Below are positions 56,179-63,650 of a stretch of DNA of 63,722 nt, piece by piece; the stretch's first letter is position 1; the number at the start of each line of letters is the position of its first letter. The stretch is taken from positions 1 to 63,722 of the forward strand of contig JAPPLF010000099.1 of NCBI GenBank assembly GCA_028874215.1. Reading direction: 5' to 3'. The notes under the pieces are model-generated. The model was not told the origin of the DNA and made no database searches. It was given only the letters and a program-made list of their open reading frames with translations. Position numbers and translations under genes: made by a program. The stretch is from Acidobacteriota bacterium (lineage in GTDB: Bacteria > Acidobacteriota > UBA6911 > RPQK01 > JAJDTT01).

Positions 56179-56472
56179 TCACGCGGACGCCTCCACCAAC
56201 GGCTGGATCCCGCTGGTGTCTACAGAAGAGCGGGCCAAGTCGAGATCGTACATCCGCTGAAGATTCAGCCAAAACTCGGGGGTCATCCCCAATGCCTTAC
56301 CGATCCGTAGCGCCGTGTCCGCCGTAATGGACCTGCGGCAGTGGACGATGTCGTTGATGCGTATCGGCGGGACGCCCATCGCCTTCGCCAGACGATACTG
56401 GCTGATGCCGAGCTCTCCCAAAATTTCCGCCAGATGTTCTCCCGGATGGACCGGTGAGGCATTGGTGGTCAT
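56179..56472 (-). CDS. higA: HigA-family antitoxin
   Basis: A 97-residue helix-turn-helix protein: VHPGEHLAEILGELGISQYRLAKAMGVPPIRINDIVHCRRSIT, the N-terminal HTH of HigA (toxin-first type), followed by a helical tail. It neutralises HigB and represses the operon. It begins 12 bases after higB. Confidence 0.92.
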   Translation of the reverse strand: MTTNASPVHPGEHLAEILGELGISQYRLAKAMGVPPIRINDIVHCRRSITADTALRIGKALGMTPEFWLNLQRMYDLDLARSSVDTSGIQPLVEASA

Positions 56473-56483
56473 CTCTCTTCTCC

Positions 56484-56762
56484 TCAGTGATAGTCAACTA
56501 TTTCGATTTCCATGGCTCCATGGTCCGTCCAGCGAAAGCACACTCGCCACTGGTCGTTGATCCGAATGCTGTACTGTCCGGTGCGGTCGCCACGCAATGA
56601 TTCGAGCCGATGTGAAGGTGGGACTCGAAGGTCAGTCAACGCCGTCGCGGCAACCACCCTCTGCAACCTCATTCGCGCCCGGCGCTGAATGTCTGGGGAC
56701 AGACGGCGGATTGGCCGACCGCGGAGAAGGTGCTCTGCGCCACGACTCCTGAATCGCTTCAC
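56484..56762 (-). CDS. higB: HigB-family mRNA interferase toxin
   Basis: A 92-residue RelE/HigB-type toxin: KRFRSRGAEHLLRG, LESLRGDRTGQYSIRINDQWRVCFRW and EIEIVDYH match the family end to end. It cleaves translated mRNAs. GTG 56762 gives the full family start. The promoter region contains the palindrome TAACGAG-T-CTCGTTA. Confidence 0.93.
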   Translation of the reverse strand: MKRFRSRGAEHLLRGRPIRRLSPDIQRRARMRLQRVVAATALTDLRVPPSHRLESLRGDRTGQYSIRINDQWRVCFRWTDHGAMEIEIVDYH

Positions 56763-58090: not shown

Positions 58091-58852
58091 TCAGTATTCG
58101 ATCTTCACCCAGTCGAACATGATCAGACCCTTGGGCAGGCGATCCTGGTCCACGGGGTAATCCATGCCCGCCCGGGTCGCGTGAAGGTCCGTCACCTCGT
58201 CCGAGAGGGGGACGATCTCCAACGGGAACAGGACGAAGATGAGGTCGATGTTCACGTCCTCCAGCACCGTCCCGATCTCGTCGCAGCCGTAGAGCCCGGT
58301 CCGGTCGTGTCGCGAACCCAGGCAGGTCCACTGGCCGGGGTCGGGGGCCAGAGTCACGGTCTGCTCGCTCCACTCCTTCGTGACCCGGATGGGTTGTCCG
58401 GTCAGGACCATGTTGGCCGTGGTCTTGTCGGTCTCGGATTGGGCCAGCAGCAGAAGCTCGGCTCCCCGGGCCTGCAACTCTCCCCGCAGGCGGACCGTCA
58501 TTCGGGCGTTGGCCAAGCGCGTGGAGTAGCCCTGCTCCACGAACGAGTTGTTGGTGTAAGGCAGGCGCGAGGCCGCCGTGGGATGCTCGTACCATCTCCC
58601 GTCGGTGTACAGCCACATCACCAGGTGGAGATATCCGGCTCCGGGCGGGGCGTGGTTGGAGTCCAGAAACCAGGGGCCGTGGCAATAGGCCACACCGTCC
58701 CAAACGGGGAGCGCGTAGTGGCGGTCAGCGTACCAGCCGCCGTTGCCCTGATTGAAGTCTTCGAAATAGACCCGGGGGTTTCCAACCTGGCCGGGGTCGC
58801 AACCGGTCAGGACTGCCACACAACCCATCAGCAAGAGTCGTCTCATTCTCAT
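58091..58852 (-). CDS. Secreted lipoprotein, unknown function
   Basis: A 253-residue lipoprotein with lipobox LTGC (Cys about residue 18). The mature part is beta-rich with conserved Trp/Tyr motifs (FEDFNQGNGGWYADRHYALPVW, HGPWFLDSNHAPPGAGYLHLV), like a carbohydrate-binding or concanavalin-type jelly roll. No family name is certain. The start is ATG 58852 after GAGGT at about six bases. The ATG at 58864 is the alternative. Confidence 0.7.
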   Translation of the reverse strand: MRMRRLLLMGCVAVLTGCDPGQVGNPRVYFEDFNQGNGGWYADRHYALPVWDGVAYCHGPWFLDSNHAPPGAGYLHLVMWLYTDGRWYEHPTAASRLPYTNNSFVEQGYSTRLANARMTVRLRGELQARGAELLLLAQSETDKTTANMVLTGQPIRVTKEWSEQTVTLAPDPGQWTCLGSRHDRTGLYGCDEIGTVLEDVNIDLIFVLFPLEIVPLSDEVTDLHATRAGMDYPVDQDRLPKGLIMFDWVKIEY

Positions 58853-58918
58853 TGGGAACCTCATATTTGTGGGGCGAATATCGTTTACGCCGGTTCCGAA
58901 GGCCACGTCCAAGTGTAA

Positions 58919-59009: not shown

Positions 59010-61841
59010 TCAGCGGCGGCGGTAGGGGTACAGGTCGATAATCCGCTCCTCCTCGGGCCTCCAGGGCGGCCGGGCGAATCGTTCTTCCTCCACGGGAAGA
59101 TGCGCTATCCAGATGTCTCCCCTCCGCTCTCTCAGAGTGAAAACGAGCTTGTCGCGCGCGACGTTGGTCCGCAGTGAGCTGAGCGAGACGCCGGCCAGCG
59201 ACAGACGGGTCTCGCGAAAATGCCAGACCATCCTGGGATCTCCCACCGGCCTCCTGTCTGCCGGGTTCAACTCCTGCACCCAGATGCCGCGAGCTCCCCC
59301 GCGGTTGGAGACGAAGTACAGGAGATTTCCGTTCGGGGACCAGCCGGTCATCCCGTCCCTGTCCTGTCCGTCCGTGACGGCCACCCATCGCTCCGGCGGG
59401 ATGCCGCCGCTCTCATGAAGTTCTTCCTGGCGGAAGGGCGCAACGTAGATTCTGGCCTGAAGCGGACCCTCGGAAACCGTGAACGCGACCCATTTGTCGG
59501 CAGGATCGAGCCTGGCCTGGACCACGCTGTACTGGGGATGCTCCAGCAGCTTGAGCTGTCTTCCGCTGGTCACGTCGAGAAGATCGACTCTTGACCTTCT
59601 TCCTCCACCTGCCCGGCGCACCACCAGGATGTCGTCTCCCTGGGAAGACCAGTCCAGGGGATGCCCGCAATCCTGACAAACCGTTGTCCTGGGAGTCTGT
59701 CTCCGGGCCTCCACTCGATAGATGCCCCGGCTCTCCGAGTCGGACTCGCCGGCGCTGTACGCCACCTGGCTTCCATCGATCCGGATCCTGGGACGGCGCT
59801 CGTCTCCCGGACTCTCGGTGAGGTTGGTCTTCGCACCCGATCCCAGGTCCATGAGCCAGATATCCCGATTCCCGGAGCGGGTGGACTCGAAGGCCATCCG
59901 GCCTCCGTCCTCGGAAAGGGACGGATGGGAATCTTCTCCCGCATGTTGCGTGAGCCTCTCCAGACGCGCCCCGTCCGGCACACGTCCCCGGTCTGTGTCG
60001 ATGGCCAGACTCCAGAGATCCAGGTTCTCGATCTGCGAGGAAAAGGCGATCCGGCCGGGCCGGACCGAGAAAGGCTCCAGCTCGGGGCCGACACCTGAAG
60101 TGATCTGCCGGGGTTCGCCCGAGAGGGTCAGGGTTCGGGGCGAGACCGCGATACGCCATAAGTTGACGCTGTCCCCGCGGCGGGCGGAGAAGACGATGAA
60201 GTTGTCGAGAGGCACCCAGACACCAGGGATCACCAGACCGGAAATCCCGGCCTGGGGCAACATGGCCGCCAGACCAAGCTTTCGAATCTCACCGTCCTCC
60301 AGCCGAAGAATCCACCAGTCGAAATCTTCGTCGCGTCTGGAGGATTCCCAGCCCAGGAATACGATGTGATCCCCGCGGGGAGACCAGATGGGATGACTCG
60401 CGACCGCGAAACTCTCCGCCAGTTGAGTCTGGGGCCGGCCGGAACTCCAGCCGGTGGTAAAGAGAGAGCCCCGCTTGAGATCGGCGCCGATCCGCCCCCT
60501 CCAATAGGCGATCCGGTCGCCTCGGGGCGAGACTCTGGGACGCCGGCCCCCATCGACGATGAACCGGGCGCCGGCCTCGTCTCCCAGGGTCGTGGTCCAG
60601 TAGAAACCCCCTCCGCGCCGCTCCGATCGGAATACCATCCTGGTCCCGTCGGGATGAAAGGATGGCTGGTGGTCGTCGGCCGGGTCCCGAGTCCGGCGGG
60701 AACCGCCTCCGCCCAGTTGCTGAACCCAGATGTCCAGGTTTCCCCCGCCGCTCCGGTCCGACGCATACCCCAGCAGCCGTCCCCGGCGGGAGATGGCCGG
60801 ATCGACCGTGAGCCCGGAAACCGACGTCACCCGGGTCAACATGGGTGGCGGAACCAGCCTGGAAGGATCCCCGGCGGTTCCCCACCACAACCCCCCGAAC
60901 AGAATCGCCGCCAGCGCCAGACCCGCGACGGCGATCTCCCGGATGGTCAATGACGTGACCCGGCGTCCCCACCGGCGGGGGCTTTGCAACTCCTGGAGCA
61001 CGTCTTCCAGAGCGAGACGCAGGTCCCGCATGTGCTGGAATCGCCGCTCGGGATCCTTGCGAAGGCAACGATCCACGACCCATTCCAATTGCCGGGGGAC
61101 GCCGCGCACCCGGTTTCCCAAGGGCCTGGGCTCCTTCTCCAGAATCCCCGCCAGCACCCTCGCCTGAGTCTTTCCCGGAAAGGCCTTGCGGCCGGTGACC
61201 ATCTCGTAGATCAGCGACCCGAAGGAAAAAATATCCGTCCGCGGGTCCGGGGGGATCCCTTCCACCTGTTCGGGGCTCATGTAGGGAGCCGTCCCCAGGA
61301 TCACGCCCTCTCTCGTCTTCTCGTCCATCAGGGTGGGAGAATGAGTCAGGTCCGAGGGTTCGGAACTCTCGGCGATCGCCTTGGCCAGACCGAAGTCCAG
61401 AACCTTGACCCGATCGTCGGGCGTAATCATCACGTTGGCCGGCTTCAGGTCCCGGTGGATGACCCCTTTTTCGTGGGCGGCCTCCACGCCTCGCGCAATT
61501 TCCACCGCGTAACCCACGGCTTTCTTCAAGGGCAGAGCACCTTCTGCCAGGAGCTCCGCCAACGTCTGCCCATCCACCAGCTCCAGAATGAAGAACTTCC
61601 GGTCGTTCGCCTCCTCGAATCCGTAGATGGCGGCGATATTGGAGTGGTTGAGCGATGCCAGAACCCGCGCTTCCCGCTGGAATCGGGACAGGCGATCCGA
61701 GTGCTCGGCGTAGCCCGGAGGGAGGACTTTGATGGCGACTTGCCGGTTCAGGCGCGTATCCCGGGCGCGGTAGACCTCGCCCATTCCCCCTGCCCCGAGA
61801 GGTCCGATGATCTCGTAACTGCCGAGCAGATCGTCAGGCAT
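59010..61841 (-). CDS. Ser/Thr protein kinase with PD40/TolB-like sensor domain
   Basis: A 943-residue membrane-spanning kinase. The N-terminal kinase has the Gly loop GPLGAGGMGEVYRA, the Lys in VAIKVLPP, HRDLKPANVMI near residue 128, the DFG motif in VLDFGLAKA and GTAPYMSPEQ. One membrane helix (IAVAGLALAAILFGGLWWG, about residues 300-320) is followed by a periplasmic six-bladed-like propeller with PD40 repeats such as SPRGDRIAYWRG, DSHPSLSEDGGRMAFES, SPNGNLLYFVSNRGG. This layout is a hallmark of Acidobacteria-type sensor kinases. It overlaps the PP2C gene by eight bases (ATGCCTGA), so the two are coupled. The start is ATG 61841, the longer frame upstream being the phosphatase shadow. Confidence 0.93.
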   Translation of the reverse strand: MPDDLLGSYEIIGPLGAGGMGEVYRARDTRLNRQVAIKVLPPGYAEHSDRLSRFQREARVLASLNHSNIAAIYGFEEANDRKFFILELVDGQTLAELLAEGALPLKKAVGYAVEIARGVEAAHEKGVIHRDLKPANVMITPDDRVKVLDFGLAKAIAESSEPSDLTHSPTLMDEKTREGVILGTAPYMSPEQVEGIPPDPRTDIFSFGSLIYEMVTGRKAFPGKTQARVLAGILEKEPRPLGNRVRGVPRQLEWVVDRCLRKDPERRFQHMRDLRLALEDVLQELQSPRRWGRRVTSLTIREIAVAGLALAAILFGGLWWGTAGDPSRLVPPPMLTRVTSVSGLTVDPAISRRGRLLGYASDRSGGGNLDIWVQQLGGGGSRRTRDPADDHQPSFHPDGTRMVFRSERRGGGFYWTTTLGDEAGARFIVDGGRRPRVSPRGDRIAYWRGRIGADLKRGSLFTTGWSSGRPQTQLAESFAVASHPIWSPRGDHIVFLGWESSRRDEDFDWWILRLEDGEIRKLGLAAMLPQAGISGLVIPGVWVPLDNFIVFSARRGDSVNLWRIAVSPRTLTLSGEPRQITSGVGPELEPFSVRPGRIAFSSQIENLDLWSLAIDTDRGRVPDGARLERLTQHAGEDSHPSLSEDGGRMAFESTRSGNRDIWLMDLGSGAKTNLTESPGDERRPRIRIDGSQVAYSAGESDSESRGIYRVEARRQTPRTTVCQDCGHPLDWSSQGDDILVVRRAGGGRRSRVDLLDVTSGRQLKLLEHPQYSVVQARLDPADKWVAFTVSEGPLQARIYVAPFRQEELHESGGIPPERWVAVTDGQDRDGMTGWSPNGNLLYFVSNRGGARGIWVQELNPADRRPVGDPRMVWHFRETRLSLAGVSLSSLRTNVARDKLVFTLRERRGDIWIAHLPVEEERFARPPWRPEEERIIDLYPYRRR

Positions 61842-63480
61842 TTCCGGCGTCCAGCCTCTCCACCACCAGAACCGTGAGATCGTCGTAGGCCGAGGCGTTA
61901 CCCATGAAACCCTGGACGGCTGCCAGGATGGCCTCCTGGACCGCGGCCCCGCCGGACGCCGCCGATTCTCGGACAACGTCCTTCAGACGCGCTTCGCCGA
62001 ACATCTCCCCATTCGGATCCATGGCCTCGGTCACCCCATCCGAATATACGACGAGAATGTCTCCGGCGTTCAGGCGAAAGGCAACAGACTCGTAGGTGAC
62101 GTTTTCGAAGGCGCCCAGAATCATGCCGCACGGATTGAGCTCCTCGATCCCGCCCGTCGACGCCCGGCAGACGTATGCGGGATTGTGACCGGCGCTCACG
62201 TACTCCCCCTCGCCCGACGGATTGACCCGGAAGAGAAACAGGGTGACGAAACGGTTGCTCGGAGTCTTCCGGAAGAGGTGGTCGTTGGCTCTGCTGACAG
62301 CCTCCCCCAAGGACAAACTGGCGCCGAATCCAACCTCCAGAACCCCTTGGAGAAAAGAGCTCAACAGCGCCGCGGGGACGCCCTTGCCCGACACGTCCGC
62401 CAGGACGCCGGTCAGGTCATCGCTTTCGGAATCGAGAAAGTCATAGTAGTCGCCCCCCACGTAACGCGTCGGAGTGCTGGAGGCATGGACGCTGAAGGAC
62501 GGGGAATGGGGAAGGTCCTGCGGCAGAAGAGCGCGTTGCGTCGCCTGGGCCAGGGACAGTTCCTGTTGGACCCGCTTCCGCTCCTCCAGGCTCTGGATCA
62601 GTTCCAGCTTTTCGAAGACGTTCGAGGCCTCCAGGGCCAGCCGGCTCAGGATCTTCTGATCCAGGCCGCTGAGCATGTGCATGGCCTTCCGGCTGTCCAG
62701 GTAGAGGATGCCCCGGACCGCCGGCCGGTCGCCGTCGCCGGAGATCCACTTAAGGGGCATGCAGGCCACGGCTCGAAGCCGCATGTTGACGATGCTCTCC
62801 TGGGCGGCGAACTGCTGGTCGATGCCCTCGGTCATCAGCAGCGGCTCCCCTTGTTTAGCCACCTGCTCGACCACCGTATGGCTGGTTTTGAACTCGTTCT
62901 CGGAAAGGTGATCGCCCCCGTGGTCCATCCCCACCACGTATTCGAAGTTCTGCCCCGAGAAGGTCAGCAGAAATCCCCGCTCCGCGCCGCTCACCCGCAA
63001 CGCCGACTCCAGCAGTTGACCCAACATCCGGTCCGCCGAGAACGTCTGGCCCCATTGATATTGGAAATCCAGGATGTGGGAGATCTTCTCCAACTCCGAG
63101 GCAACCGACGCAACGGGGGGAAGGACCGACGAAAGCTGCAGGACGGACTCCTCCAGGTTCAGGGTCCGGTTCCCGGCCTGTTCCACCAGTCCCGTGTAAT
63201 GGAACTCGCTGTGACCGGGTCCCATCCGGATCTTGTCACCGGCCTCCAGGAGCCGTTCCCGGACACGGTTCCCATTGACGAAGGTCCCGTGGGTGCTGTC
63301 CAGATCGATGACCTTGTAGACCCGGTCCTGCTGCTGCAACCGGGCGTGGCGCCGCGAGACGTAGGGATCGGTCAGAACGATGTCCGAATCGGATCTGCGG
63401 CCGATGAACAGCTCCTTCTTCCGCAACTCCATCCGGCAGGGCCGGCCGCCCTGCCGCCATTCCAGGTAATGAGCGTCCAT
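61834..63480 (-). CDS. FHA-GAF-PP2C phosphatase (RsbU/SpoIIE type)
   Basis: A 548-residue soluble phosphatase. FHA domain (about residues 1-100: ELFIGRRSDSDIVLTDPYVSRRHARL, STHGTFVNGNRV) binds phospho-threonine. A GAF-like domain (about 150-310, LLESALRVSGAERGFLLTF) may sense a ligand. The C-terminal SpoIIE/PP2C domain (about 345-548) has metal-binding GGDYYDFL, DVSGKGVPAALL, YVSAGHNPAYVC and YSDGVTEAMDPNGEMFG. It would dephosphorylate a Ser/Thr substrate, possibly the kinase or an anti-sigma antagonist. ATG 63480 follows AGAGAAGAA and starts exactly at the FHA domain. ATG 63624 is possible but adds an unrelated tail. It is the first gene of the operon. Confidence 0.93.
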   Translation of the reverse strand: MDAHYLEWRQGGRPCRMELRKKELFIGRRSDSDIVLTDPYVSRRHARLQQQDRVYKVIDLDSTHGTFVNGNRVRERLLEAGDKIRMGPGHSEFHYTGLVEQAGNRTLNLEESVLQLSSVLPPVASVASELEKISHILDFQYQWGQTFSADRMLGQLLESALRVSGAERGFLLTFSGQNFEYVVGMDHGGDHLSENEFKTSHTVVEQVAKQGEPLLMTEGIDQQFAAQESIVNMRLRAVACMPLKWISGDGDRPAVRGILYLDSRKAMHMLSGLDQKILSRLALEASNVFEKLELIQSLEERKRVQQELSLAQATQRALLPQDLPHSPSFSVHASSTPTRYVGGDYYDFLDSESDDLTGVLADVSGKGVPAALLSSFLQGVLEVGFGASLSLGEAVSRANDHLFRKTPSNRFVTLFLFRVNPSGEGEYVSAGHNPAYVCRASTGGIEELNPCGMILGAFENVTYESVAFRLNAGDILVVYSDGVTEAMDPNGEMFGEARLKDVVRESAASGGAAVQEAILAAVQGFMGNASAYDDLTVLVVERLDAGNA

Positions 63481-63650
63481 TTCTTCTCTCACGGCCACCG
63501 GCGGCAAGAATCCCCTCTCGGAATTCAACCGGTGCTCCCATCTTGGCGGACCGCGCCGGTCATCGTTCGGATACGGGTTCGTATGGCCGATGTTTCGCCT
63601 GGCCGGGCGGCCGCCCTCCGGCATCGTTGCCCGGCGGAAGTCCCGTGCGC

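Follow-up and report, generated by a model that had tools for sequence, protein, structure and literature searches.

The window analysed here is the whole of contig C99 (63,722 bases) of a 5.7-Mb acidobacterial genome assembled in 113 contigs, and two overlapping genes lie on its minus strand, a phosphatase gene first and then a kinase gene. The phosphatase (61834..63480, minus strand, 548 aa) is of the FHA-GAF-SpoIIE type (PP2C/PPM, RsbU branch) and the second product (59010..61841, minus strand, 943 aa) is a PknB-like Ser/Thr kinase with a C-terminal PD40 beta-propeller. Since the window is all of the contig, the phosphatase start lies only 242 bases from the window end. The phosphatase stop and the kinase start share the 8 bases ATGCCTGA (61834..61841, minus strand), because the kinase start reads ATGCCTGACGAT and the phosphatase end reads GGAAATGCCTGA. 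Comparison of the ORFs in the sister-species loci L006, L007 and L008 gave the same overlap, identical in all four species. A first-pass annotation had described this phosphatase-first order with eight shared bases, and it was correct: both ORFs are present and ATGCCTGA is common to both. The gene calls are longest-ORF calls, but for these two genes the shorter forms are more likely than ORFs beginning at 63624 and 61976, since the alignments with relatives begin at the first residue of the shorter proteins. The overlap suggests that the phosphatase and the kinase are translationally coupled.

The domain content read at first pass (FHA, GAF, PP2C, kinase and PD40) was supported by Pfam matches. 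In the phosphatase the SpoIIE profile matched at 3.1e-44 (151.6 bits) and the FHA profile at 1.2e-20; the GAF domain is weak in the window copy (GAF_2, 8.9e-4, below the Pfam cut-off) and above the cut-off in three distant homologs. An AlphaFold2 model (mean pLDDT 80.7, pTM 0.53) comprises an FHA sandwich (residues ~16-99), a low-confidence linker (101-146), a mixed strand and helix region at the GAF-like segment (~149-265), a single long helix (272-318) and the PP2C phosphatase domain (~329-542). Its top Foldseek matches were RssB, SpoIIE, SiaA and the RsbU part of Rv1364c, followed by FHA domains, for example GarA. Five aspartates (D344, D362, D481, D533 and D534), some of which are presumably metal-binding, are kept in 93/93 aligned relatives. 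To judge by the SpoIIE profile and the conserved aspartates, both of which are present, the phosphatase is a member of the SpoIIE/RsbU branch of PP2C rather than of the PrpC/PstP type usual for Hanks kinases; one PrpC/PstP-like trait is present, as its gene adjoins a kinase gene. The sole match of the genome to PF13672-type PP2C at E <= 0.001 is on contig C69, with none on contig C99.

The FHA domain (63184..63435, minus strand) has the phospho-threonine pocket residues R28, S42, R43, H45, H64 and N69, among them the Arg of the GR motif (R28), the Ser of SRRH (S42) and the His of the S-x-N/H-G-T loop (H64). R28 and S42 are invariant in the 93 aligned relatives, the alignment leaving out L125 and L130, which have no intact FHA-SpoIIE ORF. 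Residue 64 is usually Asn; it is His in the genus (3/3 counted) and in the taxonomic order (10/10), Asn in the kinase-linked loci of families f29 and f83 described below (22/22), and mixed in other relatives. Damage to the domain by His64 was considered and rejected on a precedent, since in the kanadaptin FHA domain the backbone contact of the Asn is described as being made by a His at the equivalent place (His240; PMC4157861). Given that precedent, the loss of phospho-Thr-binding residues, named in the first-pass annotation as the finding that would speak against FHA docking, is not what is seen, and on its residues the pocket is taken to be intact. Threonine 108 of the linker was rejected as an intramolecular FHA ligand because L008 has Pro at that site. 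The nearest solved relatives of the domain include GarA, FhaA and OdhI, the GarA entry 6i2p being a PknB-GarA complex. KAPP, a plant protein opposing receptor kinases, is an FHA domain fused to PP2C and is not known to have a GAF domain. Its FHA domain (1mzk) matches that of the phosphatase at 8.8e-4; the FHA-PP2C fusion is shared and the PP2C branch differs, so that KAPP is an analogy and not a matter of membership.

The kinase matched Pkinase at 1.6e-49 (residues ~8-285) and, C-terminal to a hydrophobic helix (~297-321), PD40 at 9.4e-25 in three stretches. The catalytic motifs are complete in one open domain (glycine loop 16, Lys 36, HRDLKPxN 129, DFG 149, (A/S)PE 189), the Hanks-type motif set of the PknB group is complete, and its nearest solved relatives are PknB structures. 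The single hydrophobic helix would place the PD40 propeller in the periplasm. A structure model of the kinase was unusable because of its mean pLDDT of 38. In the activation segment, from DFG (149) to SPEQ (192) (61266..61397, minus strand), three threonines do not vary among the four species and are candidate autophosphorylation sites: T166, T170 (in T-x-x-D) and T176. Their invariance is only a pointer, because most of the kinase is equally invariant across these species. A place of the kinase in an anti-phage system was rejected, the PADLOC matches (PD-T4-6 and others) spanning the generic kinase domain only.

The pair occurs in 4/4 sampled species of the genus, and purifying selection acts on each of the two genes (dN/dS 0.16-0.27 for the kinase and 0.19-0.22 for the phosphatase; the phosphatase alignment and phosphatase dN/dS exclude L007, where there is an assembly gap). 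Identity among the four species is 87-96%, and co-conservation in such close relatives is weak evidence. In the taxonomic order a phosphatase ortholog (>=48% identity over most of the length, partial in G009) is present in 15/18 genomes and the kinase, at E <= 1e-100, in 4/18, all within the genus. A kinase as next gene was found in 0/11 other genomes of the order, where the neighbours of the ortholog are varied, and conservation of the pair across the order was therefore rejected; a same-strand kinase 886 bases upstream of the phosphatase in G002, with another ORF between, was treated as chance. Conservation of the pair, to which the first pass had tied its proposal, thus stands within the genus and fails in the other 11 orthologs of the order. 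The nearest full-length kinases in the class outside the genus are 36-39% identical; the ORF lists of three of their loci (L150, L179 and L180) contain no SpoIIE gene, and in a fourth (L181) an FHA-SpoIIE gene lies ~3 kb downstream of the kinase with a large gene between. The simplest reading of this distribution is that the kinase joined an older phosphatase in the lineage of the genus.

It could be argued that the kinase gene came to lie after an older phosphatase gene by accident in the ancestor of the genus and is only co-expressed with it, as the confinement of the pair to one genus and the varied neighbours elsewhere in the order would suggest. We consider such an accident very improbable: the 8-base overlap has been kept while dS reaches 0.41, and a link to a kinase recurs independently in the distant acidobacterial family f29. 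Moreover, a Pfam profile search gave 5 Pkinase matches in the 5.7-Mb genome, and because kinases are here ~1 gene in 1000 (an estimate assuming ~1 gene per kb), a kinase as the next gene of the phosphatase is unlikely by chance. As a separate observation, the genus genomes G000, G011, G012 and G013 have only 3-4 Pkinase matches each at E <= 1e-10, against 1-71 (median ~20) in the remaining 14 genomes of the order, 11 of which have 15-71.

Relatives of the phosphatase are widespread, with matches at E <= 1e-52 in 193/396 genomes of the phylum, most of them near full length among the matches listed. From these, 60 loci at phylum and class level were picked by hand and not at random, and a kinase lies within 1.5 kb of the phosphatase relative on the same strand in 3/60 and on the opposite strand in 2/60. 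A STAS gene lies within 1.5 kb of the FHA-SpoIIE phosphatase, on the same strand, in 8/60 (L184, L185, L186, L191, L208, L212, L214 and L223); such counts of STAS and RsbW-like genes are lower bounds, because the profiles were grown from single sequences. Enzymes of the SpoIIE branch are described as known mainly as STAS phosphatases (PMC6213207). The main alternative is that the phosphatase works in partner switching, as RsbU and SpoIIE do, and acts on a STAS anti-anti-sigma factor encoded elsewhere. The kinase would then be no substrate but an input by way of the FHA arm, either by recruiting the phosphatase or by phosphorylating it. The catalytic domain and its top structural matches agree with a partner-switching role, as do the STAS genes near relatives, the 8 STAS matches in the genome and the FHA-GAF-SpoIIE gene of L181, which adjoins a HATPase_c_2 (RsbW-like) gene. 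This alternative is nevertheless rather unlikely: the STAS profile search gave 0 matches on contig C99, both the genus pair and the f29 clusters tie the phosphatase to a Hanks kinase, and the FHA arm, unneeded for a pure RsbU function, is retained throughout. The earlier word "self-contained" is unsupported, given the classical action of the branch on STAS proteins and the STAS genes beside the 8 relatives.

The three same-strand kinases all carry FHA, and in L229 and L234 (both of family f29) Pfam gives a zinc ribbon, a kinase and FHA. One gene lies between kinase and phosphatase; Pfam identifies it as RDD in L229, and the intervening ORF of L233 looks different. A further 19 f29 loci (L242-L260) were chosen by family once the three kinase-linked loci were known, kinase content being no criterion, and were scored by custom profiles and ORF-start similarity, not individually by Pfam. 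In 19/19 of them the order is zinc-ribbon-FHA, kinase-FHA, an RDD-like gene and the FHA-GAF-SpoIIE gene. Altogether the FHA-GAF-SpoIIE gene follows zinc-ribbon/kinase/FHA and RDD-like genes on the same strand in 21/21 f29 loci, and with the one locus of family f83 (L233, 1/1) a same-strand kinase-FHA gene is upstream of the phosphatase in 22/22 loci. It can tentatively be suggested that the FHA-armed SpoIIE-branch phosphatases of Acidobacteriota form a class of their own that is dedicated to Hanks kinases, the bacterial equivalent of plant KAPP, and that they paired independently at least twice with different kinases, namely the PD40 sensor kinase in the genus and, in f29, a zinc-ribbon/kinase/FHA protein with an RDD membrane protein. 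Phosphatase-first pairs were also seen in two further Acidobacteriota loci, L072 (4803-9200) and L077 (5587-8910), where a response regulator-SpoIIE gene is followed directly by a Hanks kinase gene, after 202 and 19 bases respectively; the kinases have an FGE-sulfatase or TPR C-terminal part.

For the pair in the window we favour, at about even confidence, a coupled and mutually opposing kinase-phosphatase module with PD40 sensing, FHA docking on the kinase and GAF gating; the two proteins probably act as an on/off pair. By analogy it would be a KAPP-like or PknB/GarA-like module in which, within the genus, a PD40 kinase was added to an FHA-GAF-SpoIIE phosphatase that had existed before. The propeller outside the membrane would sense a ligand or the state of the envelope and control how active the PknB-like kinase is on the inner side; the kinase would autophosphorylate on threonines, with T166, T170 and T176 as candidates. 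The FHA arm of the phosphatase would bind a phospho-threonine that the kinase has made, with the kinase's own residues as the likeliest place, and this binding would bring the SpoIIE-type catalytic domain up to the kinase. The GAF domain would gate the phosphatase via the long helix 272-318, probably by the dimeric coiled-coil route known for RsbU. We infer the sensing side, the docking, the direction of dephosphorylation and the gating; what is observed is the order of the genes and their overlap, catalytic and FHA residues that are intact, the purifying selection on both genes, and the fact that in f29 the phosphatase is again linked to a kinase, though not to the same one. In favour of this module is also the fit of the model helix to the coiled-coil linker mechanism described for RsbU (PMC12143880), and PknB/GarA is a precedent for the docking, together with PknQ/MupFHA, where an FHA protein is described as bound through the kinase activation loop (PMC4238996). 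Counted against it are the absence of the pair outside the genus despite the phosphatase in 11 other genomes of the order, the mainly STAS-directed activity ascribed to the SpoIIE branch (PMC6213207) together with the STAS genes near 8/60 relatives, and the GAF match below the cut-off. The name "phosphorelay", used at first pass, is the wrong term, because no His-Asp chemistry is involved.

Alternatively, the FHA arm could follow a GarA- or OdhI-like logic and carry the phosphatase to third proteins that the kinase has phosphorylated on Thr; kinase and phosphatase would then set and remove one mark on those proteins, and the kinase would not be a target. GarA, FhaA and OdhI are indeed nearest to the FHA domain among solved structures, and the genes of kinase and eraser overlap. 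Nevertheless no candidate substrate is conserved beside the pair, the downstream gene differing among the sister species, and this possibility is judged quite improbable.

Among known systems, the actinobacterial PknB-GarA (complex 6i2p) contains the nearest solved relatives of both partners; GarA, unlike the phosphatase of the window, is a small regulator of metabolism that lacks a phosphatase domain, and in that system the phosphatase PstP is separate. Kinases of the PrkC/Stk1 type carry PASTA repeats where the window kinase carries PD40. In PrpC-PrkC and Stp1-Stk1 a Ser/Thr phosphatase and a Hanks kinase are likewise encoded together, such pairs in one operon being described as frequent, but their phosphatase is placed in the second PP2C subfamily (PMC6213207), whereas that of the window is a SpoIIE-branch enzyme with FHA and GAF. 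RsbU, RsbP, SpoIIE, SiaA and Rv1364c share the catalytic branch and the described layout of sensor, helix and phosphatase (PMC12143880); in contrast to them the window phosphatase has an FHA arm and overlaps a Hanks kinase gene, with no STAS match on the contig. The KKP kinase-kinase-phosphatase module also begins with the phosphatase gene, with kinases after it and FHA within the module, but is described as found in prophages, with a phosphatase of PF13672 and two kinases that are short, FHA being carried by a kinase (PMC11341870). A fusion of FHA to a SpoIIE-like phosphatase has already been reported as sce0876 of Sorangium cellulosum, for which the account given in PMC2887360 describes no coupled kinase. 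Literature searches found neither the pair of FHA-GAF-SpoIIE phosphatase and PD40 kinase nor the f29 cluster. As far as these sources go, kinase-phosphatase operons (PMC6213207) and FHA-SpoIIE fusions (PMC2887360) are already known, and what is new is that the two are combined, and that this recurs in two lineages whose kinases differ. PMC2887360 calls it unclear whether SpoIIE-branch phosphatases act against Hanks kinases as well, and a minimal two-gene pair with the FHA arm within the phosphatase would allow a direct two-protein test of such opposition.

Just downstream of the kinase is a lipoprotein-like ORF (58091-58906) with no Pfam match, which is found downstream in all three sister species at 89-92% identity and directly after the kinase in L006. 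In L007 (8123-9921) and L008 (10813-12611) the kinase is separated from the lipoprotein gene by an AAA_21 ATPase and DUF4276 pair, which is absent from that place in the window and in L006; the L007 copies are PADLOC matches to HEC-01A and HEC-01B. Further along the window (56179-56762, minus strand), ORFs for an HTH_3 protein and a HigB-like toxin form a toxin-antitoxin module of the HigBA type.
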